A DNA stretch of 64,000 bases from Thalassospira sp. TSL5-1 (GTDB taxonomy: Bacteria; Pseudomonadota; Alphaproteobacteria; Rhodospirillales; Thalassospiraceae). The stretch lies in contig NZ_KV880637.1 of NCBI RefSeq assembly GCF_001907695.1, forward strand, positions 1,922,001 through 1,986,000. The letters run 5' to 3'. Below, piece by piece: positions 40,527 through 50,385 of this stretch. Every line of letters begins with the position of its first letter. The stretch's first letter is position 1. The translations under genes and the position numbers were made by a program. Under the pieces are notes generated by a model. That model was not told where the DNA came from and did no database searches. It was given only the letters and a program-made list of their open reading frames with translations.

Positions 40527-43500
40527 TTAATAATCCAGTTTGAACTGAATACCGGCCTTGCTGTCTATTTCGCTGGTTTCACTGGTAATCTTGATATGCG
40601 GGGTGAGTTCTATTTCCACCTCGACACCGCTTGATCCGGGGGTAGTCCCCTGTTTGGTGCCGACATAAATATCATCGGTCAGATATTTCCCCGCCTTAAC
40701 CGTCGGCCCGTTTTCGCCGCCATCAACACGAAGCACATCCGCACCGATAAAGTTACGAATAGTCCCAATCACATCAAGTCCCCCGCCACTGCCCGACAAT
40801 TGCGCGGCCGCATTGGCAAGCTGCACGGCCTCGACCGCGCTGAGGCTGCCTTGCGACTTGCCAAACAGGACCTGCGACAAAATTTCGTCCTGTGGCAGGG
40901 CCGGCTGCGAACTCAGGCTGAGTTGCGGATCTGTTGCCGGGCCGGACAAAGAGGCCGTCACGGTCAGGTCATCGGTTGTATAGACACCGGCAATATTCAA
41001 AAGCGGGTCGGGCGGTTGCGCCCCTGAAAACGTAATTTTGGAATCCTTGATGACAAAGGTTTTGCCAATCAGGTCCAATTGGCCGCGCAAAGCCCGCAAT
41101 TCGCCGACAATTTTGGGGTTATCCGCCCGGCCGGTAATATCAAGATGCCCGCCCCATTCGGAATCCAGGCCCTTGCCGCGCACAAATAAACGGCCCGGCA
41201 CATCCACCTTGGCATTCAACGTGGCAACAAAACCGCCCGCATTCTTTTGGGCGTCTTTCTTCTTTTGCCCATCCGGCGTTTTTGCCAGATTTTGCACATT
41301 CAGTTCGGGAACCGATGCGGGCAAAGCAACGCTTAAATCCACTTCACCACGCCGCAATGTGACCGTGCTTTCAATATCTGCCTTGTTTTCATTGCCGGTG
41401 ACATCCACGTCAATATCGGTCCAGACTCGCAACTCGTCCATCCGGGTGACGGCCATGTTGCGCATGGTGATATTTGCCGTGTAATCCACACCGGCACCCA
41501 GCTTGACATCCGCCTTGCCGGTCAGGGTGCCCTGCCCGCCATCATCGGCGGTCAGGCGGGTTAACTGAAAACCATCATTGTTAAAGTCACCATCCAGCAC
41601 AATGTCCTGAACCAGGGTGCCATATTGCAAATGTTCATAACGGCCATCGCGCATTGCAACGGTCCCCTGCCACAGCGGCTTGGCAAGCGTTCCTTCGACA
41701 CTGGCATCAAGCTTTAAATTGCCCGACAGCGAATGATCCGGCAACGGCACATAGGGCCAAAACTGCCCGATATCGCCATCAATTTTGGCCTGTGCTGAAA
41801 TCGGTTCATTCTCGCGTGCCGCAAACCGGGATTTCAGGAACGACACATCAACCGGCACCGTGCCCCTAGCGGTCAGGACCTTCAAATCAGGACGCCCCAT
41901 TTCAAGACCGGCATTCACAGCGCCCTCCTGCAAATCCGCCTTTAATTCCAATGTCAGTGGCGGCAACTGCGACGCCGCAGCAACACTAATATTGCTGATT
42001 GTCCCATCGATACGGGCTGTCGCCGGTTTTTTTGGGGTTTCTTCGGCAGTGGCCTTTAAGGTCAGCTTGCCATCCAGCCCGGAAACATCAAACATCGCCC
42101 CCCAGGGGCCCAGGGCAATATCTGCAACATCTGCCGTGGCAACAAAACTTTTCCCCGGTACCAGATCAAGCTTTGCCCTAAGCGCACCATTGCCAATTGC
42201 AACATCGGCATTGGACACCATGCTGCCATTCGCACCAAGACGAAATTCCAGCGGAGCACGCAGGGATATATGCTGTGTACCAACATCGGCATCAAGCTTA
42301 TTGGCTGTTATGTGAATGTCGTTGGCAAGGGCAATTTCCGCCTGCGTATCCAGTTTCACCGGAATGCGATTTTGCACCATTGCCCGGGCTTTCACACCGA
42401 CACCCAGTTTTTTCAAAACACCTGCCAATGTTGCCTTCAGGGTTTCAATGCGCCCGGCATTACTGCCAATATCGCGCCCTTCCAGGGTCAGGTTCAGGTC
42501 TGGATCGGCAAAGGCATTATCAATACTGCCATCAAGGCGCACATCTTCCAGCCGGGCGGTTTCAATCCCGTCAGGGCCAACCATCCTAAGCCCTTTTGCC
42601 TTCGCGCTTAGCGTAACATGCTGCGCAGCATTTTTGGGCGAAAGGGTCACATCCGCCGTGATCCGACCATTGGCAAGCGGTACACTAAAGGCCTGTGTCA
42701 TCACCGCATCAAGCTTATTGAGCGTGATCTTCCCCCGCAACGGCACAGCGTAGTCCGGCATGGCAAGATCACCGGTCAGATCAATATGATCCCCGATCAG
42801 GGCAATGTTTGAAACCGCTAATCCATCTGATGGCAAGGCAAGGTCGGCATTAATTTTATAAGGCGCATTTTGCCATGAAAACCCGCCGCGATTGCGCAAT
42901 TGCAAGGTTTTGCCGCCATCGCCCTTGACGGGTTGCCACGCCATATTGGTCGCCAGTTTGACGTCCGAAAACACCTGGTCCGACGTTTCAACAATAGGTG
43001 CTGCAAGGGTGATTTTGCCTTCGGGCTCTGCCAGCGGACCATTCAGGGCAACAGTCAGCTTTGCATCCTTGCCCTTTAACGAAACCGGGATTGAGGGCGG
43101 TATGATCCCGGCCTTGAGCCCCAGATCTGCAGTGACCGACAATGTATTAAAATCATCGGTGATATTGACCTTACCCGCCCCCGCAATATTTGCCGCCTGG
43201 ATCGTATTCACATCCACCGAGAGATCCATTGCCGGGCTAATGGCCAAATCAGCCTTTATTACCGGACTGCTGCCAACCACATGGTCCAGTTCTGAAATAC
43301 CAAAGCCTGCCTGTTGGGTGGTGATATTGATTTTGGCCTGCCCACCCTGCGCTGCATTCCAGCGAAGACCTGAAATATCGACACGTCCCTGACCAGTTAA
43401 ATCCATGCCGGAAATGGCGGCAAATGCTGAAAGATCAGAAACATCCGCTATCAGATTGGCATCCTTCACGGCCCCGGTATCATCAAGCATAGCCGTGGCC

Positions 43501-44972
43501 CGGGCATTTATTTTCGGGGTTTGAAGCTTCAGGTCTTTAACAGCGATCTCACTGAAATCACCGGTCGCATCCGCGGCTAGCGAAATATCCTGTGTCTTCC
43601 CGGCCATGTCGCCAAGGGCGGCATCGTTGAATTGATGATCACGGGTGTGAATATCGGTTCTCAGGGCAAAATCATCACCATCGGGAACCAGATTGGCTGT
43701 TGCAGTCAATGTGCCAATTGTCGAGACGGGGGTTTCAATGCCGGATGCGGAAATATCGGCATTAATCGTGGGCAGTGCCAAATCACCCTTGGCTTGAGCA
43801 TGCAGGCTTAGCTTCTGCCAACGAACGGCATTGTCCAGCAACGCACTTGCCGCCCCGTCAATATCCGATGACAGGTTGGCATCCATGCTGTTATCGGCAA
43901 AATTGATTTTGGCCGTTCCACTGGCGGTTAAAAGCTGATCCTTACTGACATTTAACGCAGTAATATCAAGCAGGCTGTTTTTGCCATCGAAAACACCATC
44001 GGTTTTAAGGGCGACCGCGCCACGCAAGGCAGGTGGCAGGGAATTTGCCAAATCCCCCAGGCTTTGCGCCATCACATCAAGGCCAAAGCCAATATGCTTT
44101 TCATCGCCCATTTGTACTGTAACCGTGCCATTGACACGGGCAAGGTTGGTTGCCGCAAATTGCAAATCGCCGTTCCAGTCATTGGCAGGGCCACTGCCCT
44201 TTAGCGACAGGGTGACATCCGGGGCCTCGGCCTCGGTCAGACCGGCCAACGCCATGCCGAGCCCCTTGTGGTCCAAGTGGCCTTCAATATCGGCGTTTAG
44301 TTTTTGTCCTTCGGCATCAAAATCAAGGTTCGCACGAATATAGTCCACCCCGCCATCCAGCGGCTGCAAATTCAGCGCCAAAACCGCCGAAAGGTTTTGG
44401 CTGGCACGGGCATGACCCGAAAGCTGATAGGAAAAGACCCGTCCATCCGCCGGATTGGTAATACGGATTTTTGGCACATCAAGGGTTTCAAGCGCGAAGG
44501 CCAGTGGCAGGGTAAAACTGCCACTCTCATCAGTTTGATCCTCGTCAGCGCTGGAGGATGACGCATTCGGCAAGGTTACGTTCAGCGCGGATGCGCCAAT
44601 GCGGTCGATATCAACTTTCGCCCCCAGCAGCGCCAATGGCGACCAGGCCAGTACCAGATCATCGCCGTCAACTTTCAACCCGGTATCGGGCATATCCAGG
44701 TTAAGCGATGAAACCGACAGGCTATTCCACAAACTGCCCTCAACCCGACCAAGGACAAACTGACCATTGATTGCTTCGGAAACCGTGCGATTGATCCAGG
44801 GGGTCAAGGACCGCAATACCGGGCCGGTCCCGGCAATAAAAACCAGCAATGACAGCACAACAAGCAGGGCAACAAAACCCAGTACACCGCGCTTTAACCA
44901 CCGCACGGCACCCCCTTTTCGCAGGGGTTTAACCTGTTTGGCTGTTTTATCGGTCGTATGTTTTTCAGCCAT
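40527..44972 (-). CDS. tamB: Translocation and assembly module protein TamB (DUF490/AsmA-like)
   Basis: This very long 1481-residue protein is anchored in the inner membrane by an N-terminal helix (GVLGFVALLVVLSLLVFIAG, about residues 29-48). It spans the periplasm as a repetitive beta-rich groove that is thought to carry lipids or outer-membrane proteins. Its middle is built of repeating short strands rich in Asp, Gly, Leu and Ala. The C-terminal DUF490 domain ends with VEVEIELTPHIKITSE and a terminal Tyr. Its start codon overlaps the tamA stop (TAATG). TamB acts with TamA in the outer membrane, and the gene order tamA-tamB is conserved in proteobacteria. Confidence 0.93.
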   Translation of the reverse strand: MAEKHTTDKTAKQVKPLRKGGAVRWLKRGVLGFVALLVVLSLLVFIAGTGPVLRSLTPWINRTVSEAINGQFVLGRVEGSLWNSLSVSSLNLDMPDTGLKVDGDDLVLAWSPLALLGAKVDIDRIGASALNVTLPNASSSSADEDQTDESGSFTLPLAFALETLDVPKIRITNPADGRVFSYQLSGHARASQNLSAVLALNLQPLDGGVDYIRANLDFDAEGQKLNADIEGHLDHKGLGMALAGLTEAEAPDVTLSLKGSGPANDWNGDLQFAATNLARVNGTVTVQMGDEKHIGFGLDVMAQSLGDLANSLPPALRGAVALKTDGVFDGKNSLLDITALNVSKDQLLTASGTAKINFADNSMDANLSSDIDGAASALLDNAVRWQKLSLHAQAKGDLALPTINADISASGIETPVSTIGTLTATANLVPDGDDFALRTDIHTRDHQFNDAALGDMAGKTQDISLAADATGDFSEIAVKDLKLQTPKINARATAMLDDTGAVKDANLIADVSDLSAFAAISGMDLTGQGRVDISGLRWNAAQGGQAKINITTQQAGFGISELDHVVGSSPVIKADLAISPAMDLSVDVNTIQAANIAGAGKVNITDDFNTLSVTADLGLKAGIIPPSIPVSLKGKDAKLTVALNGPLAEPEGKITLAAPIVETSDQVFSDVKLATNMAWQPVKGDGGKTLQLRNRGGFSWQNAPYKINADLALPSDGLAVSNIALIGDHIDLTGDLAMPDYAVPLRGKITLNKLDAVMTQAFSVPLANGRITADVTLSPKNAAQHVTLSAKAKGLRMVGPDGIETARLEDVRLDGSIDNAFADPDLNLTLEGRDIGSNAGRIETLKATLAGVLKKLGVGVKARAMVQNRIPVKLDTQAEIALANDIHITANKLDADVGTQHISLRAPLEFRLGANGSMVSNADVAIGNGALRAKLDLVPGKSFVATADVADIALGPWGAMFDVSGLDGKLTLKATAEETPKKPATARIDGTISNISVAAASQLPPLTLELKADLQEGAVNAGLEMGRPDLKVLTARGTVPVDVSFLKSRFAARENEPISAQAKIDGDIGQFWPYVPLPDHSLSGNLKLDASVEGTLAKPLWQGTVAMRDGRYEHLQYGTLVQDIVLDGDFNNDGFQLTRLTADDGGQGTLTGKADVKLGAGVDYTANITMRNMAVTRMDELRVWTDIDVDVTGNENKADIESTVTLRRGEVDLSVALPASVPELNVQNLAKTPDGQKKKDAQKNAGGFVATLNAKVDVPGRLFVRGKGLDSEWGGHLDITGRADNPKIVGELRALRGQLDLIGKTFVIKDSKITFSGAQPPDPLLNIAGVYTTDDLTVTASLSGPATDPQLSLSSQPALPQDEILSQVLFGKSQGSLSAVEAVQLANAAAQLSGSGGGLDVIGTIRNFIGADVLRVDGGENGPTVKAGKYLTDDIYVGTKQGTTPGSSGVEVEIELTPHIKITSETSEIDSKAGIQFKLDY

Positions 44973-46999
44973 TAAAACGCCTGACCCAGGCTAAGATAGA
45001 TCTGGTAGTCATCATCAATATTATCGCGTTTATCCAACGGTACCGCAAAATCAAACCGAACCGGGCCAATCGCGGTGTAATAGCGCAAACCAAGGCCGGT
45101 TGACCACATCAGGTCAAAATCCTTGGGCGTGACGGTTTCATAAACGTTGCCGCCTTCCACAAAGGGCACAAGGCCAATGCTGTCTGTGATGCGGGCACGA
45201 AATTCCAGCCCGGCTTCAAGCACCGAACGCCCGCCGATCGGATCGCCATCTTTATTGAGCGGGCCCACGGTTTGATATTCATACCCGCGCACGGAACCAC
45301 CACCACCGGAATAAAACCGTTTGTTTGACGGCAAGGAAGACCGTTCATCGCCAAAAATACTGCCAATACGGCCCCGGCCGGCCAAAATATAGTGCCCCTT
45401 TTCATCAAAGGCATAATATTGCGAGCCATCAAGCGAGACCGAGGTAAACTGAGTATTGGCCCCGGCAAGGCTGATATAAGGCGATACAGATAGTTCCAGC
45501 CGGTCGCCTTTTGTCGGGTCCAGCGGATTATCGGTATTGTCGTGGCGCAAAATGCCCCGCAAACCACCCAGATAAAATTCCTCGTTGGGGGAATCGGCAC
45601 CTGTCAGGTCTGAATATTCCGCCGTGACGCCATAGGTGGCCGACCAGTTTTTCCAGAACCGGCGTTCAATGCCGGTAAAGGCATTTGCCAGATTACCGTC
45701 ATAGGCATCGGTGGTGTAACTGGTGGCTTCGCCTTCGGCAACCAGCGCCTGTTTGCGCCGTAAAAATTGCGGCTTGCGGAAACTGGCCGATGCGCCCTGT
45801 TTCAACCCGGACCCTTCGAGCTTCAAACGCAGCTTCTCACCTTTGCCAAACAGGTTGCGATGTTCCCAAAAGGCATTGGCGCCGGGGCCGTCGGCGGTTG
45901 AATAATCCAAACCGCCACCGATGGTGCGATGATCACGTTCCTGCACGCGCATTTCGATGGGGATTTCGCCATTGTCGCCCACCGGCCCAACCGGTTTGAC
46001 AATCACGGAATTAAACAGATTGGATTGCGCCAGGTCGCGCCGCGTTTCGGTGACTTTTTCGGGCGAATAAACATCGCCTGAATCCCAGGCATGATAACCC
46101 CGGATAAAATCGGCATCGACATCCCCTGCTCCCACGACATTGATTTTGCCGAAGGTCGCCTTTTTGCCAGTGGTAACTTCGTAGATGACGCGAATGGTTT
46201 TTTCTGCCGTATCGGCCAATACCCGTTTTTTACCCGCCTTTACCAACGGATACCCCTCGTTGCGAAACACATCGAGCACACTTTGTTCCGCAAGAATAAT
46301 CGGCTCTGCCTCGGCCCGCATCCCGATCGACAGGTTGGCGGTTTTCAATTCCGCATCTGTCATCGAACGGGTTTCGGACGTGCCATCGGGATGGACAATT
46401 TTCAATTCGACATCGGATAAAAGATAAGGGGTTCCCGTCTCGATCCGGTATTGCAATACAAGCGGACGGGGTGCATCCGTCTCTTTGGAATTTGCTGTTT
46501 CTTTTTTTACCGCAGGCTCGGCATTATCATCGTCACTTTCCGGCGCGTCTGCCACATCGGCATTTTCAATATCGTCAGACGCAATTTCACTCTCGCCGTT
46601 GGCAGGCTGTGTGTCAGCGTCGCGAATGTCATAATTCACAATGGCATCATAAAAGCCAAAAGACCGCAAAACCCGGGTAAACCGTTCAACATCGTCATCC
46701 GCACGCCGTTCCAACCCCGCCTTTGTCGGCGTTGGCCGGTCTTTTAGGCGAATGGCTGTGCTGTTTTCGCGAAGGGTTGCCAACAGGCGTTCTTCCTGCG
46801 GGTCCAGGCCCTGAAACGTGACCGAATAGGGGATGGAACGGCCAACATCCTGCGTTGCCTCGGAGTTTGCGCCATCACCAAAGGGTAATTTGTCGGTAAA
46901 TGAGCAGGCTGACACCATCGACGCCCCGACAAAGACCGACATCATCATCAACCGTTTTTTCAATCCCCCTGACGGCGGATACGTTTTTCCTGGAAACAC
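44972..46999 (-). CDS. tamA: Outer-membrane assembly protein TamA (BamA/Omp85 family)
   Basis: This 675-residue Omp85-family protein has N-terminal POTRA domains (about 55-375) and a C-terminal 16-stranded barrel (about 390-675) ending YLSLGQAF with the usual terminal Phe. The barrel contains FYSGGGGSVRGYEYQTVGP, the conserved (V/I)RGY motif. The first 35 residues have KKR, a hydrophobic run and V-S-A-C at 29-32, a lipobox, so this TamA may be a lipoprotein. A strongly acidic, low-complexity insert (about 128-178) interrupts the first POTRA region. The start taken is a GTG with AGGGA upstream; a TTG or ATG at codons 13-18 is possible. Confidence 0.9.
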   Translation of the reverse strand: MFPGKTYPPSGGLKKRLMMMSVFVGASMVSACSFTDKLPFGDGANSEATQDVGRSIPYSVTFQGLDPQEERLLATLRENSTAIRLKDRPTPTKAGLERRADDDVERFTRVLRSFGFYDAIVNYDIRDADTQPANGESEIASDDIENADVADAPESDDDNAEPAVKKETANSKETDAPRPLVLQYRIETGTPYLLSDVELKIVHPDGTSETRSMTDAELKTANLSIGMRAEAEPIILAEQSVLDVFRNEGYPLVKAGKKRVLADTAEKTIRVIYEVTTGKKATFGKINVVGAGDVDADFIRGYHAWDSGDVYSPEKVTETRRDLAQSNLFNSVIVKPVGPVGDNGEIPIEMRVQERDHRTIGGGLDYSTADGPGANAFWEHRNLFGKGEKLRLKLEGSGLKQGASASFRKPQFLRRKQALVAEGEATSYTTDAYDGNLANAFTGIERRFWKNWSATYGVTAEYSDLTGADSPNEEFYLGGLRGILRHDNTDNPLDPTKGDRLELSVSPYISLAGANTQFTSVSLDGSQYYAFDEKGHYILAGRGRIGSIFGDERSSLPSNKRFYSGGGGSVRGYEYQTVGPLNKDGDPIGGRSVLEAGLEFRARITDSIGLVPFVEGGNVYETVTPKDFDLMWSTGLGLRYYTAIGPVRFDFAVPLDKRDNIDDDYQIYLSLGQAF

Positions 47000-47270: not shown

Positions 47271-49232
47271 ATGCCACATTTCCAGACCACGCCGATTGTT
47301 GTTCGCACTGCGCGAAAAGCCGATATTGACGGCCTTTGTGCCATTGAAGAGGCCGTTTTTACATCCGACCGAATGAAACGCGAGACCTTTTTACGGTTTT
47401 TGCGCCAACCCACCGCCCGGGTCCTGGTTGCCGATGCCGGAGAATCCGGCGTTGTTGGCTATGGCATGTTGTTGCTGCGCGCGGGTAGCAGCACGGCACG
47501 CATTTATTCGCTGGCGATTGATAATGACTGGCAGGGCAAAGGGCTGGGCACCCAGTTGCTTGCCGGGCTGGAAAGCGTTGCAATTGAGGCCGGGTGCGAC
47601 AAAATGCGCCTTGAGGTCCGCGATGACAACCATTCCGCCCGGGCAATTTACGAACGGCATGGTTATGTCGATATTAAGGCCCTGCCTGATTATTACGAAG
47701 ACGGCTGCGATGGCAAACGCATGGAACGGCACCTGTTTGATGCGCCAACCCAGCTTTCCCCCGCCATGTCAACGGGCGCACCGCTTATTCTGGTTGATAA
47801 CCTTCGCGACCTGCCGTTCAAGGTGGCCGGGGCGCGTGTGATGAAAGTGCGAGACTACCTGGCCCTTAACCACGGCATTCGCAATCGTCGTGTCATCAAT
47901 TTGTGCCATTCCTATGAATATTTATCGCGCGGCTATTATTGCAGCCTGCTGGCTGCAGCGCGTAGCGAAAGGGTGATCCCCGAAGCGGACGTTTTGCTGG
48001 ATTTGAACTGGAAACGCCTGCAAAAAACCGCGCGCGCCCAAATCGGCCCGATGATTGCCGACGCCCTTGCCAAACCAGGCAATGAGCGCCCCGACCATAT
48101 TGACGTTTATTTTGGCCGCACAACCGACAAGCGGTTTCGCGATTTGGCCCAGCGCACCTTTGACCAATTCCGCTGCCCGATCCTGCGGCTGCATTTAAAC
48201 AGCGGCGACAAAAAACTGCTGCGCGAGATAGAGGCCCCGTCGCTGCAACATATTGACGCCAGCGAAATGCCCGCCTTTGAGGCGGCCCTTAATGCCTATT
48301 TGCGCGGGCGCGTGCGCAAACCTTCCAGTGGCCGGGCCCCCACCGCGCTGGTTGCCATTTTGTATGATCCTGACGAAACGTTGCCACCATCCGACAGCGA
48401 CGCCCTGGCAAATTTTATTCAGGCTGCAAGCGACCTTGGCGCGCGGGCAGAACTGATTACAGCAAAGGATTTTCATCACCTGTCGGAATTTGATGCGCTG
48501 CTTATTCGCGAAACAACCGCATTGGACCATCACACCTATCGGTTTGCCAAGCGGGCGCGTAAAGAAGGCATCCCGGTGATTGACGACCCGGAATCGATTT
48601 TGCGCTGCACGAACAAGGTTTACCTGGCGGAATTGCTGCGCACCCATCGTATCCCGGCCCCGCGCAGTGCGATTTTTGACAAACGGCGGATCGATGAAAT
48701 TGGCAAGCAGTTCAATTTCCCCAGCGTATTAAAGGTACCTGACGGCTGTTTTTCGCGCGGCGTGCGCAAGGTTACCTCGCCTGAACATCTGCAACAGGTG
48801 GCGGGCGAAATGTTTAAAAATTCGGAATTGCTGGTGATCCAGGAATATGTCGAAACCACCTTTGACTGGCGGATTGGCGTGCTCGGCGGGGAAACGCTTT
48901 ATGCCAGCCGCTATTTCATGGCGCCGGGGCACTGGCAAATCGTCAAACATGAAGATGACGGCAAAAATTACGAAGAAGGCGGCTTTGAAACTGTCCCGGT
49001 CGAAAATGCGCCGACCGACATTGTCGAAACAGCCCTTGCTGCTGCACGTTTGATGGGCAACGGGCTTTATGGTGTTGATGTGAAAGAAACGCCCTATGGC
49101 CCGATGGTGATTGAGGTAAATGACAATCCCAGCATTGATGGCGGTGTCGAGGATGCCGTGATCGGCATGGATTTATATCGCCGCATCATCGCCCATTTAT
49201 TAAGCCAAATCGCACAACCCTGGACGATTTAA
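47271..49232 (+). CDS. GNAT acetyltransferase-RLAN-RimK-like ATP-grasp fusion protein
   Basis: This is a 653-residue three-domain enzyme. Residues about 8-155 are a GNAT domain with the acetyl-CoA loop QGKGLG (88-93) and a PDYYEDG segment (139-145). Residues about 171-345 match the RLAN domain (RimK-like ATP-grasp N-terminal), including CHSYEYLSRGYYCSLLAAAR. Residues about 405-650 are an ATP-grasp ligase with ATP-binding Lys488 in PSVLKVPDGCF, QEYVETTFDWRIGVLGG, and the metal-binding EVNDNPSIDGG (Glu615, Asn617). RimK-type ligases form amide bonds between an amino acid and an acyl phosphate, so the protein may build and acetylate a peptide or add residues to a protein. It converges on a GNAT-peptidase gene with a related GNAT half. 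Confidence 0.88.
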   Translation: MPHFQTTPIVVRTARKADIDGLCAIEEAVFTSDRMKRETFLRFLRQPTARVLVADAGESGVVGYGMLLLRAGSSTARIYSLAIDNDWQGKGLGTQLLAGLESVAIEAGCDKMRLEVRDDNHSARAIYERHGYVDIKALPDYYEDGCDGKRMERHLFDAPTQLSPAMSTGAPLILVDNLRDLPFKVAGARVMKVRDYLALNHGIRNRRVINLCHSYEYLSRGYYCSLLAAARSERVIPEADVLLDLNWKRLQKTARAQIGPMIADALAKPGNERPDHIDVYFGRTTDKRFRDLAQRTFDQFRCPILRLHLNSGDKKLLREIEAPSLQHIDASEMPAFEAALNAYLRGRVRKPSSGRAPTALVAILYDPDETLPPSDSDALANFIQAASDLGARAELITAKDFHHLSEFDALLIRETTALDHHTYRFAKRARKEGIPVIDDPESILRCTNKVYLAELLRTHRIPAPRSAIFDKRRIDEIGKQFNFPSVLKVPDGCFSRGVRKVTSPEHLQQVAGEMFKNSELLVIQEYVETTFDWRIGVLGGETLYASRYFMAPGHWQIVKHEDDGKNYEEGGFETVPVENAPTDIVETALAAARLMGNGLYGVDVKETPYGPMVIEVNDNPSIDGGVEDAVIGMDLYRRIIAHLLSQIAQPWTI

Positions 49233-49234
49233 CC

Positions 49235-49278
49235 AAAAAAGCCGGTCCTTCTGATCAAACAGAACGACCGGCTTTTAT
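49235..49278. terminator. Bidirectional terminator between the two GNAT-fusion genes
   Basis: The stem AAAAGCCGGTC / GACCGGCTTTT with an 18-nt loop and T-runs on both strands lies between the convergent stop codons. Confidence 0.88.
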
Positions 49279-50385
49279 TTATGCTTTGGCAATAAAGACA
49301 GCGGCCTGAAGTTTTGAGCGGCCATAGCGCGCCATCAAATCAAATTCGTGGCGCAGGATCGGCACCGAGACACAATCGCTGCCATTATAAGGCTCATCAT
49401 CCTCGCCAATATCAGGATCGGTAACGTAAACGAACCGGTCGTCAAAGCCCGACACCACCACCCAATGCGGAATTTTATCGCCATAGATGCGATACTGACT
49501 AATCAGCACAAGGGCCATTTGCCCATCACGAGTATGACGTTCAATGTCATCAATGCCAAAGGCCCCGGCCGTTACCGGAATGCCTGCCTCGGCGGCCTGA
49601 TCGGCAAAATCGTAATGCACCAGTTCGACCACCTTGCGATTTTCGGCCTTGCGCACGGTATCCACAAATAATGGCCCTTCGCGCGAAACCAGCACTTCGG
49701 CCTTAAAACCACGGCGACAGGCGGCCAATGCCAGGCCCAGTGGCCCGCAGCCACCATGCCCGGATGTCATAAAAATGGTGGTTGCCTCGCGCCATAGGGC
49801 GATTTCGCTGCTACGGTCCATTTCAATGGCGGGGTTCAAGGCATTCATCGCCATCATCAATGATGCCGGACCGCAGGTGAATGGCAGGGTTTGATGATAA
49901 AAATGCAGCGGCGACGGCCGACGCAGGAATTGCGGCACCAAGACCTTTTCCATGCGCAAGGCCGGGCTGTGATCCGGATAATAATCGGGATACAGGGCAA
50001 ATTCCTGGTAGGCATTTTTGCGATAAAGCGAAATGGCCGCGCCGTTTTGCGGGTGCACTTCCAGGCGCAAAATCGGCGCACCGAAATCCAGCGTTGTTTC
50101 CTCGGCACGGAGCAGCAGCATCTGCCCAATACCGGCCCGCTGAAAGGCCGGGTCCACCGCCATGCTATAAAGACGTGCCAGCGCCGTATTGCTGCGATGA
50201 ATAACCACAACATAGCCAATAACGGCATTGTCACACACGGCGACCCAAAACCGGGCGGTCGCACTGGTCATAAAATGCCGCATGGTCCGGCGCGTCATTC
50301 GGTCCTGATCAAAACAGGTTTTTTCAATACGCACCAAAGTAGTGAGATCAGCTTCCGTTGCCAGACGCAGGACAGGATCGGACAT
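49279..50385 (-). CDS. GNAT acetyltransferase-papain-like (C39-family) peptidase fusion protein
   Basis: This is a 368-residue two-domain protein. Residues about 5-148 form a GNAT domain with loop QRAGIG (82-87) and a PDYYPDH segment (133-139). Residues about 158-365 form a C39-like cysteine peptidase with Gln165 and nucleophile Cys171 in HQTLPFTCGPASL, His307 in IPHWVVVSG and Asp323 in VTDPDIG. These are a complete papain-type set. It has no signal peptide and no transporter domains, unlike bacteriocin-exporting C39 proteins. The ATG at 50385 is preferred to a GTG 11 codons earlier. It probably cleaves or trims the product of the facing GNAT-RLAN-ATP-grasp enzyme. Confidence 0.87.
   Translation of the reverse strand: MSDPVLRLATEADLTTLVRIEKTCFDQDRMTRRTMRHFMTSATARFWVAVCDNAVIGYVVVIHRSNTALARLYSMAVDPAFQRAGIGQMLLLRAEETTLDFGAPILRLEVHPQNGAAISLYRKNAYQEFALYPDYYPDHSPALRMEKVLVPQFLRRPSPLHFYHQTLPFTCGPASLMMAMNALNPAIEMDRSSEIALWREATTIFMTSGHGGCGPLGLALAACRRGFKAEVLVSREGPLFVDTVRKAENRKVVELVHYDFADQAAEAGIPVTAGAFGIDDIERHTRDGQMALVLISQYRIYGDKIPHWVVVSGFDDRFVYVTDPDIGEDDEPYNGSDCVSVPILRHEFDLMARYGRSKLQAAVFIAKA

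Follow-up and report, generated by a model that had tools for sequence, protein, structure and literature searches.

The 64,000-nucleotide window analysed here (Thalassospira sp. TSL5-1, contig NZ_KV880637.1, positions 1,922,001 to 1,986,000) contains two convergent multidomain genes that we are somewhat inclined to read as the form which a widespread module of the cytoplasm takes in Thalassospira, one that would build and break down a small N-capped peptide. Gene A (window positions 47271..49232, plus strand, 653 amino acids) joins a GNAT acetyltransferase domain, an RLAN domain and a RimK-like ATP-grasp domain, as judged from its open reading frame and from Pfam and NCBIfam matches. Gene B (49279..50385, minus strand, 368 amino acids; open reading frame and Pfam) joins a GNAT domain to a C39- or papain-like domain of the DUF3335 family. 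In both proteins the GNAT domain starts only a few residues from the N-terminus. Between the stop codons of the two genes lie 46 bases that hold a two-way intrinsic terminator hairpin (about 49236..49276), which a simple terminator scan did not pick up and which was found by RNA folding. Its near-perfect stem has folding energies of -25.4 and -29.5 kcal/mol for its two strands (z = -6.3 and -7.1), and on both strands shuffled sequences were never equally stable. An initial annotation, made from the DNA letters of the window, had proposed the convergent pair, a terminator common to both genes, the absence of signal peptides and an intact Gln165, Cys171, His307 and Asp323 set in gene B. The Pfam matches confirm the domains, the folding results bear out the shared terminator, and the four residues are invariant in an alignment of 20 relatives.

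RLAN ligases and GNAT proteins form the core of a recurrent gene neighbourhood

We searched samples of 289 alphaproteobacterial, 398 Pseudomonadota and 246 Planctomycetota genomes, and read 80 named RLAN loci that span several phyla, counting neighbours within 3.5 kb. Among the alphaproteobacterial genomes, 33 had RLAN and 26 had DUF3335; 21 genomes carried both, and in 20 of these the two were adjacent (Fisher p = 4e-19, a value made optimistic by the relatedness of the genomes). The adjacency of GNAT-C39 and RLAN genes, which the initial annotation had put forward as a check on its proposal, is thus borne out. In the Pseudomonadota sample, RLAN was found in 72 genomes, and among 30 loci read, 29 had a GNAT and 24 a DUF3335 domain. 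Of the 80 named loci, 70 had a GNAT nearby, 52 had DUF3335 and 14 had a DUF2817 protein, with GNAT and C39 occupying a single polypeptide at about 52 of the 80. Three of the ten loci at which no GNAT was found (L100, L114 and L124) begin less than 1 kb from the end of a contig.

These co-occurrence statistics contradict a coincidental adjacency of A and B. Two independent genes that merely lie side by side in Thalassospira would agree with the convergent orientation, with the lack of a common promoter and with the limitation of this gene order to seven Thalassospira loci. The adjacency seen in 20 of the 289 alphaproteobacteria, however, recurs at most other Pseudomonadota loci and in several orientations, and we consider chance neighbourhood extremely improbable.

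The peptidase was a less constant partner than the GNAT. Of 16 genomes without DUF3335 at the RLAN locus, 14 gave no match above the cut-off anywhere in the genome (one of them had a sub-threshold fragment) and two carry DUF3335 elsewhere. Because 14 of the 16 lack it, the peptidase is optional in the GNAT-partnered branch, and the core consists of the RLAN ligase and a near-constant GNAT. These counts do not support the earlier view that the pair is incomplete without its peptidase.

Other neighbours were more restricted. DUF2817, an M14-like protein weakly linked to the AstE/aspartoacylase fold (1.4e-5), lies beside the RLAN locus mainly in gammaproteobacterial genomes, plus one Mariprofundus; in several Gammaproteobacteria its gene stands between divergent GNAT-C39 and RLAN-ligase genes (L110:8687-9826, L095, L125, L129 and others). 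It was rejected as a general partner, being common but unlinked in Alphaproteobacteria and not detected in the TSL5-1 genome. KdpD-type kinase, LysR, TonB receptor and DapF-like neighbours were recurrent, yet looked lineage-specific and were set aside as well. In a Comamonadaceae genome, a KdpD-type osmosensor kinase is encoded just downstream of the RLAN ligase (L089:11920-14691), where a weak link to salt or potassium is possible. The RLAN ligase of the Pseudomonas aeruginosa plasmid pZYPA1927 (L153:6902-8491) adjoins a glutamate/aspartate ATP-binding cassette transporter, a gamma-glutamyltransferase and pagP, and no GNAT-C39 protein is annotated within 7 kb of it. Near the 80 loci there was no small open reading frame conserved across lineages, of the kind expected for the precursor of a graspetide or other ribosomally synthesized and post-translationally modified peptide; a distant precursor is possible. 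A phage origin was rejected, since 50,697 phage records contained no match to the RLAN ligase.

GCS2 takes the place of GNAT in Planctomycetota

RLAN was present in 65 of the 246 Planctomycetota genomes. Among 30 planctomycete loci that were read, GCS2 was found in 25, the complete set of C39_2 peptidase, RLAN ligase and GCS2 in 21, and GNAT-C39 in three; at the loci with GCS2, no GNAT match was seen beside it. GCS2 is the glutamate-cysteine-ligase family, whose known activity is the ligation of free amino acids. The planctomycete peptidase matches Peptidase_C39_2 and not DUF3335. Across the planctomycete loci (L186-L215; for instance L193, L206 and L213), the three-gene set persists around very divergent RLAN proteins, an example being L220. 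In Legionella adelaidensis, a 9-kb record labelled as a plasmid (NZ_LR134436.1, L154:41-3232) carries an RLAN ligase, GCS2 and an N-formylglutamate amidohydrolase (FGase) in an operon-like row. In the RLAN tree, ligases partnered with GCS2 and ligases partnered with GNAT fall on two separate sides (support 100). One locus placed among the GCS2-partnered ligases (L133) has, in place of GCS2, a GNAT immediately downstream of its ligase.

As GCS2 can stand in for GNAT, the common role of the two is probably the capping of an amine by an acyl group, and the swap points to a ligase that requires one partner for amine acylation and an amide hydrolase. The C39-like, M14-like and FGase partners have amide cleavage in common, which favours the synthesis and turnover of an N-capped peptide as the function of the module.

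The gene A ligase resembles LysX and RimK

In gene A, the GNAT domain (about amino acids 5-155; Acetyltransf_1 match at 35-132, 1.5e-17) is followed by the RLAN domain (PF14401, amino acids 194-338, 8e-37, 126.6 bits against a cut-off of 25), encoded at 47850..48284 on the plus strand (genome search match G000:C1:1969850-1970284, 130.6 bits; Pfam). A pre-ATP-grasp and RimK-like ATP-grasp region comes last (about amino acids 355-648; PF08443 match at 448-641, 3.3e-9, 37.1 bits against a cut-off of 21). This order of RLAN and RimK-like ATP-grasp domains places gene A among the RLAN-ATP-grasp amidoligases. In the predicted structure of amino acids 166-653 (predicted local distance difference test, pLDDT, 85.6; predicted template modelling score, pTM, 0.63), the ATP-grasp part superimposes on LysX (3vpd, Z 27.0, 2.6 A across 265 residues) and on RimK (7qys, Z 26.5). 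K284, K323, R369, D438, E450 and N452 (domain-alignment numbering) are invariant among aligned RLAN ligases, and those invariant ATP-grasp residues that were traced align in register with LysX and RimK. ATP-grasp enzymes of the LysX/RimK type form an acyl-phosphate and then couple it to an amine. Because of its fold and conserved residues, the gene A ligase should, by analogy, make an amide bond in this way.

For the RLAN domain itself no such counterpart was found: its profile gave only chance-level matches against the PDB, and the Foldseek and VIA match lists for the model of amino acids 166-653, in which RLAN is included, were filled by ATP-grasp matches. An origin of RLAN as a duplicate of the pre-ATP-grasp domain was rejected, the profile comparison having given a probability of 1.5 percent.

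Gene A scores below the cut-offs of the characterized families with which it was compared. LysX and ArgX of lysine-arginine biosynthesis provide the closest solved ligase fold, with conserved catalytic residues, but gene A scores 78 bits against the LysX cut-off of 276, and neither an amino-group carrier protein nor lysine genes were seen beside it. For the RimK families, the scores were 28.1 bits against a cut-off of 331 (PRK10446) and 80.6 against 143.4 (TIGR00768). The pair resembles RimK and RimB, which act in the glutamylation of ribosomal protein S6, in that a peptidase accompanies a ligase of the RimK-like ATP-grasp fold. It differs in the additional RLAN domain, in the GNAT or GCS2 partner and in the peptidase, which is papain-like here whereas RimB is retropepsin-like.

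The combination of GNAT and ATP-grasp in one protein is also found in the synthetase of the osmolyte N-acetylglutaminylglutamine amide (NAGGN; TIGR03103), and no NAGGN synthetase-like protein was found elsewhere in the TSL5-1 genome. Both facts would fit an equivalent osmolyte pathway. Gene A, however, scores 22.2 bits against the TIGR03103 cut-off of 569, with the matched stretch in its GNAT part; it has an RLAN domain, and its ligase is nearest to RimK and LysX. An asparagine-synthetase-like partner was not seen, and the hosts of RLAN ligases include soil and freshwater groups beside marine ones. We therefore regard a NAGGN-equivalent pathway as very unlikely. The osmolyte role suggested in the initial annotation had drawn on the NAGGN analogy, and these scores offer it no direct backing.

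Two old GNAT types and a papain-like domain

The GNAT domain of gene B spans about amino acids 3-150 (Acetyltransf_1 match at 26-123, 1.1e-14). In the predicted structure of the protein (pLDDT 89.7, pTM 0.86), it resembles the N-alpha-acetyltransferases Ard1 (4pv6, Z 23.3) and RimI (2cnm, Z 22.4). Its E109 and Y121 align without gaps to positions 103 and 115 of RimI (2cnm), which we take to be the catalytic Glu/Tyr pair of that enzyme; the gene A GNAT has an equivalent pair, E115 and Y127. In spite of this likeness in fold and catalytic residues, both domains fall below the RimI cut-off of 86.4 bits (TIGR01575; about 81.4-84 bits for one and 70.6-73.5 for the other), and a separate RimI-like gene is present elsewhere in the genome. 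In the GNAT tree, the gene B domain lies inside the main C39-fused group and the gene A domain outside it, beside a Cohaesibacter fusion. These separate positions, together with an identity of 35 percent (54 of 154 aligned residues), rule out the gene A GNAT as a recent copy of the gene B GNAT and indicate that Thalassospira holds two old GNAT types. Across the 80 loci, the position of the RimI tyrosine (Y115) is occupied by Phe in 17 of 52 C39-fused GNATs and in 1 of 26 other GNATs.

The folds of both proteins would also suit a protein-modification cycle of the RimK/RimB kind, in which the ligase adds residues to the end of a protein, an N-terminus is capped by the GNAT, and the added residues are taken off again by the C39-like and M14-like enzymes. 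The nearest solved folds of the ligase, RimK and LysX/ArgX, act on the ends of proteins or carrier proteins, and RimI and Ard1, the nearest GNAT folds, acetylate protein N-termini. Moreover, a pairing of ligase and peptidase is known for RimK and the protease RimB, which act on RpsF (PMC12239564). No conserved gene for a target protein was found beside the RLAN loci, however, and the replacement of GNAT by a family of free-amino-acid ligases fits a small molecule better. Such a cycle appears unlikely.

The second domain of gene B is encoded at 49291..49905 on the minus strand (genome search match G000:C1:1971291-1971905, 277 bits) and matches DUF3335 (PF11814, 'Peptidase_C39 like') at amino acids 161-365 (2.3e-82, 275.9 bits against a cut-off of 25). 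With this family match and the complete Gln-Cys-His-Asp set (Q165, C171, H307 and D323), gene B is a member of DUF3335. The structure match lists for the model of both domains were filled by GNAT matches. Among solved structures, the best profile match of the C39 domain was to BtrH N-terminal-domain proteins, of an acyltransferase family, and was weak and local (E 0.0018); in Pfam, phytochelatin synthase was matched as well, though weakly (E 0.048). Both matches would suit an acyl- or peptidyl-transferase, in which case all three domains would build one product and none would degrade it, and the frequent GNAT-C39 fusion likewise suits successive steps of a synthesis. An essential synthetic step is nevertheless unlikely given the many genomes that have ligase and GNAT but no DUF3335, and the partners found elsewhere, FGase and the M14-like DUF2817, belong to families that take their name from amide hydrolysis or have a relationship to it. 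We consider a purely synthetic role of the domain quite unlikely.

The convergent arrangement is confined to Thalassospira among the loci examined

At the 52 loci with DUF3335, the GNAT-C39 gene lay upstream of the ligase gene in the same direction in 25 cases, divergently in 19, downstream in the same direction in one and convergently in seven. All seven convergent loci were from Thalassospira, and among the loci examined no other genus had this layout or the double GNAT. The GNAT-RLAN-ATP-grasp fusion occurs also in Cohaesibacter and in a metagenome-assembled genome labelled Thermoplasmatota (L075), and DUF3335 was absent from both assemblies. The RLAN tree unites all of these three-domain fusions (support 99); the presence of one in the Thermoplasmatota-labelled genome could reflect transfer or mis-binning. 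A search of the TSL5-1 genome found a single copy each of RLAN and DUF3335. The closest named relative is T. profundimaris S25-3-2, whose RLAN ligase is 96 percent identical. Directly upstream of gene A, two minus-strand open reading frames (window positions 40527-46999) resemble the translocation proteins TamB and TamA, as judged by eye.

Iyer, Abhiman, Burroughs and Aravind reportedly named RLAN in 2009 and predicted peptide-ligase neighbourhoods composed of RLAN/RimK-like ATP-grasp, GNAT and papain-like proteins. Compared with those reported neighbourhoods, the pair has the same domain families in the same association; it differs in the fusion of a GNAT to the RLAN ligase, the second GNAT on the peptidase and the convergent order. 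On DUF3335-GNAT fusions, a passage of PMC10318531 cites Iyer et al. 2009. Beyond that citation, our literature search found no paper on the RLAN-GNAT-DUF3335 system, no experimental work and no enzyme with a known substrate. The pair would accordingly be a genus-specific form of an experimentally uncharacterized system that has reportedly been predicted before.

A proposed pathway for an N-capped peptide

In the pathway that we propose, a RimI/Ard1-like GNAT would first acetylate an amino acid or a short peptide at its alpha-amine. The RLAN/ATP-grasp ligase, judged by its fold and conserved residues, would then activate a carboxylate by forming an acyl-phosphate and join it to an amine, yielding a small N-capped peptide, with RLAN probably holding or selecting the substrate. 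Finally, the papain-like DUF3335 domain may cut or transfer an amide bond of the same product, as turnover or maturation, a step that the M14-like DUF2817 protein would join in some gammaproteobacteria. In Thalassospira, the capping enzyme would be fused to the ligase and a second capping domain retained on the peptidase. Of the initial proposal of amide synthesis, acylation and cleavage, the combined chemistry gains from the linkage data and from the GNAT-to-GCS2 swap; an essential peptidase and an osmolyte role do not gain support.

Several points weigh against this pathway. The papain-like domain of gene B could be a transferase and not a peptidase, given the profile matches described above. 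Those C39-fused GNATs that bear Phe at the RimI-Tyr position may not be ordinary acetyltransferases and may carry out other chemistry. Furthermore, genes A and B of Thalassospira have no common promoter region, and convergent genes need not be co-expressed.

Beyond the Thalassospira pair, we tentatively suggest that RLAN ligases could be the constant core of an as yet unmapped family of small-molecule pathways with interchangeable caps: acetyl, added by a RimI-like GNAT, in Pseudomonadota, and a gamma-glutamyl-type cap, added by GCS2, in Planctomycetota, each with a recycling amide hydrolase. If this is true, the capped peptides would be a class not yet discovered, akin to glutathione or NAGGN, and some 11 to 26 percent of the sampled genomes of these groups would encode their synthesis. 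The GNAT/GCS2 swap narrows the question to a product with an amine open to capping by acetyl-CoA chemistry or, alternatively, by a ligase of the glutamate family, and a product class narrowed in this way would make discovery by targeted metabolomics practical. Thalassospira, in which capping enzyme and ligase are a single fused protein and RLAN and DUF3335 each occur once per genome, would offer a simple system for this purpose.

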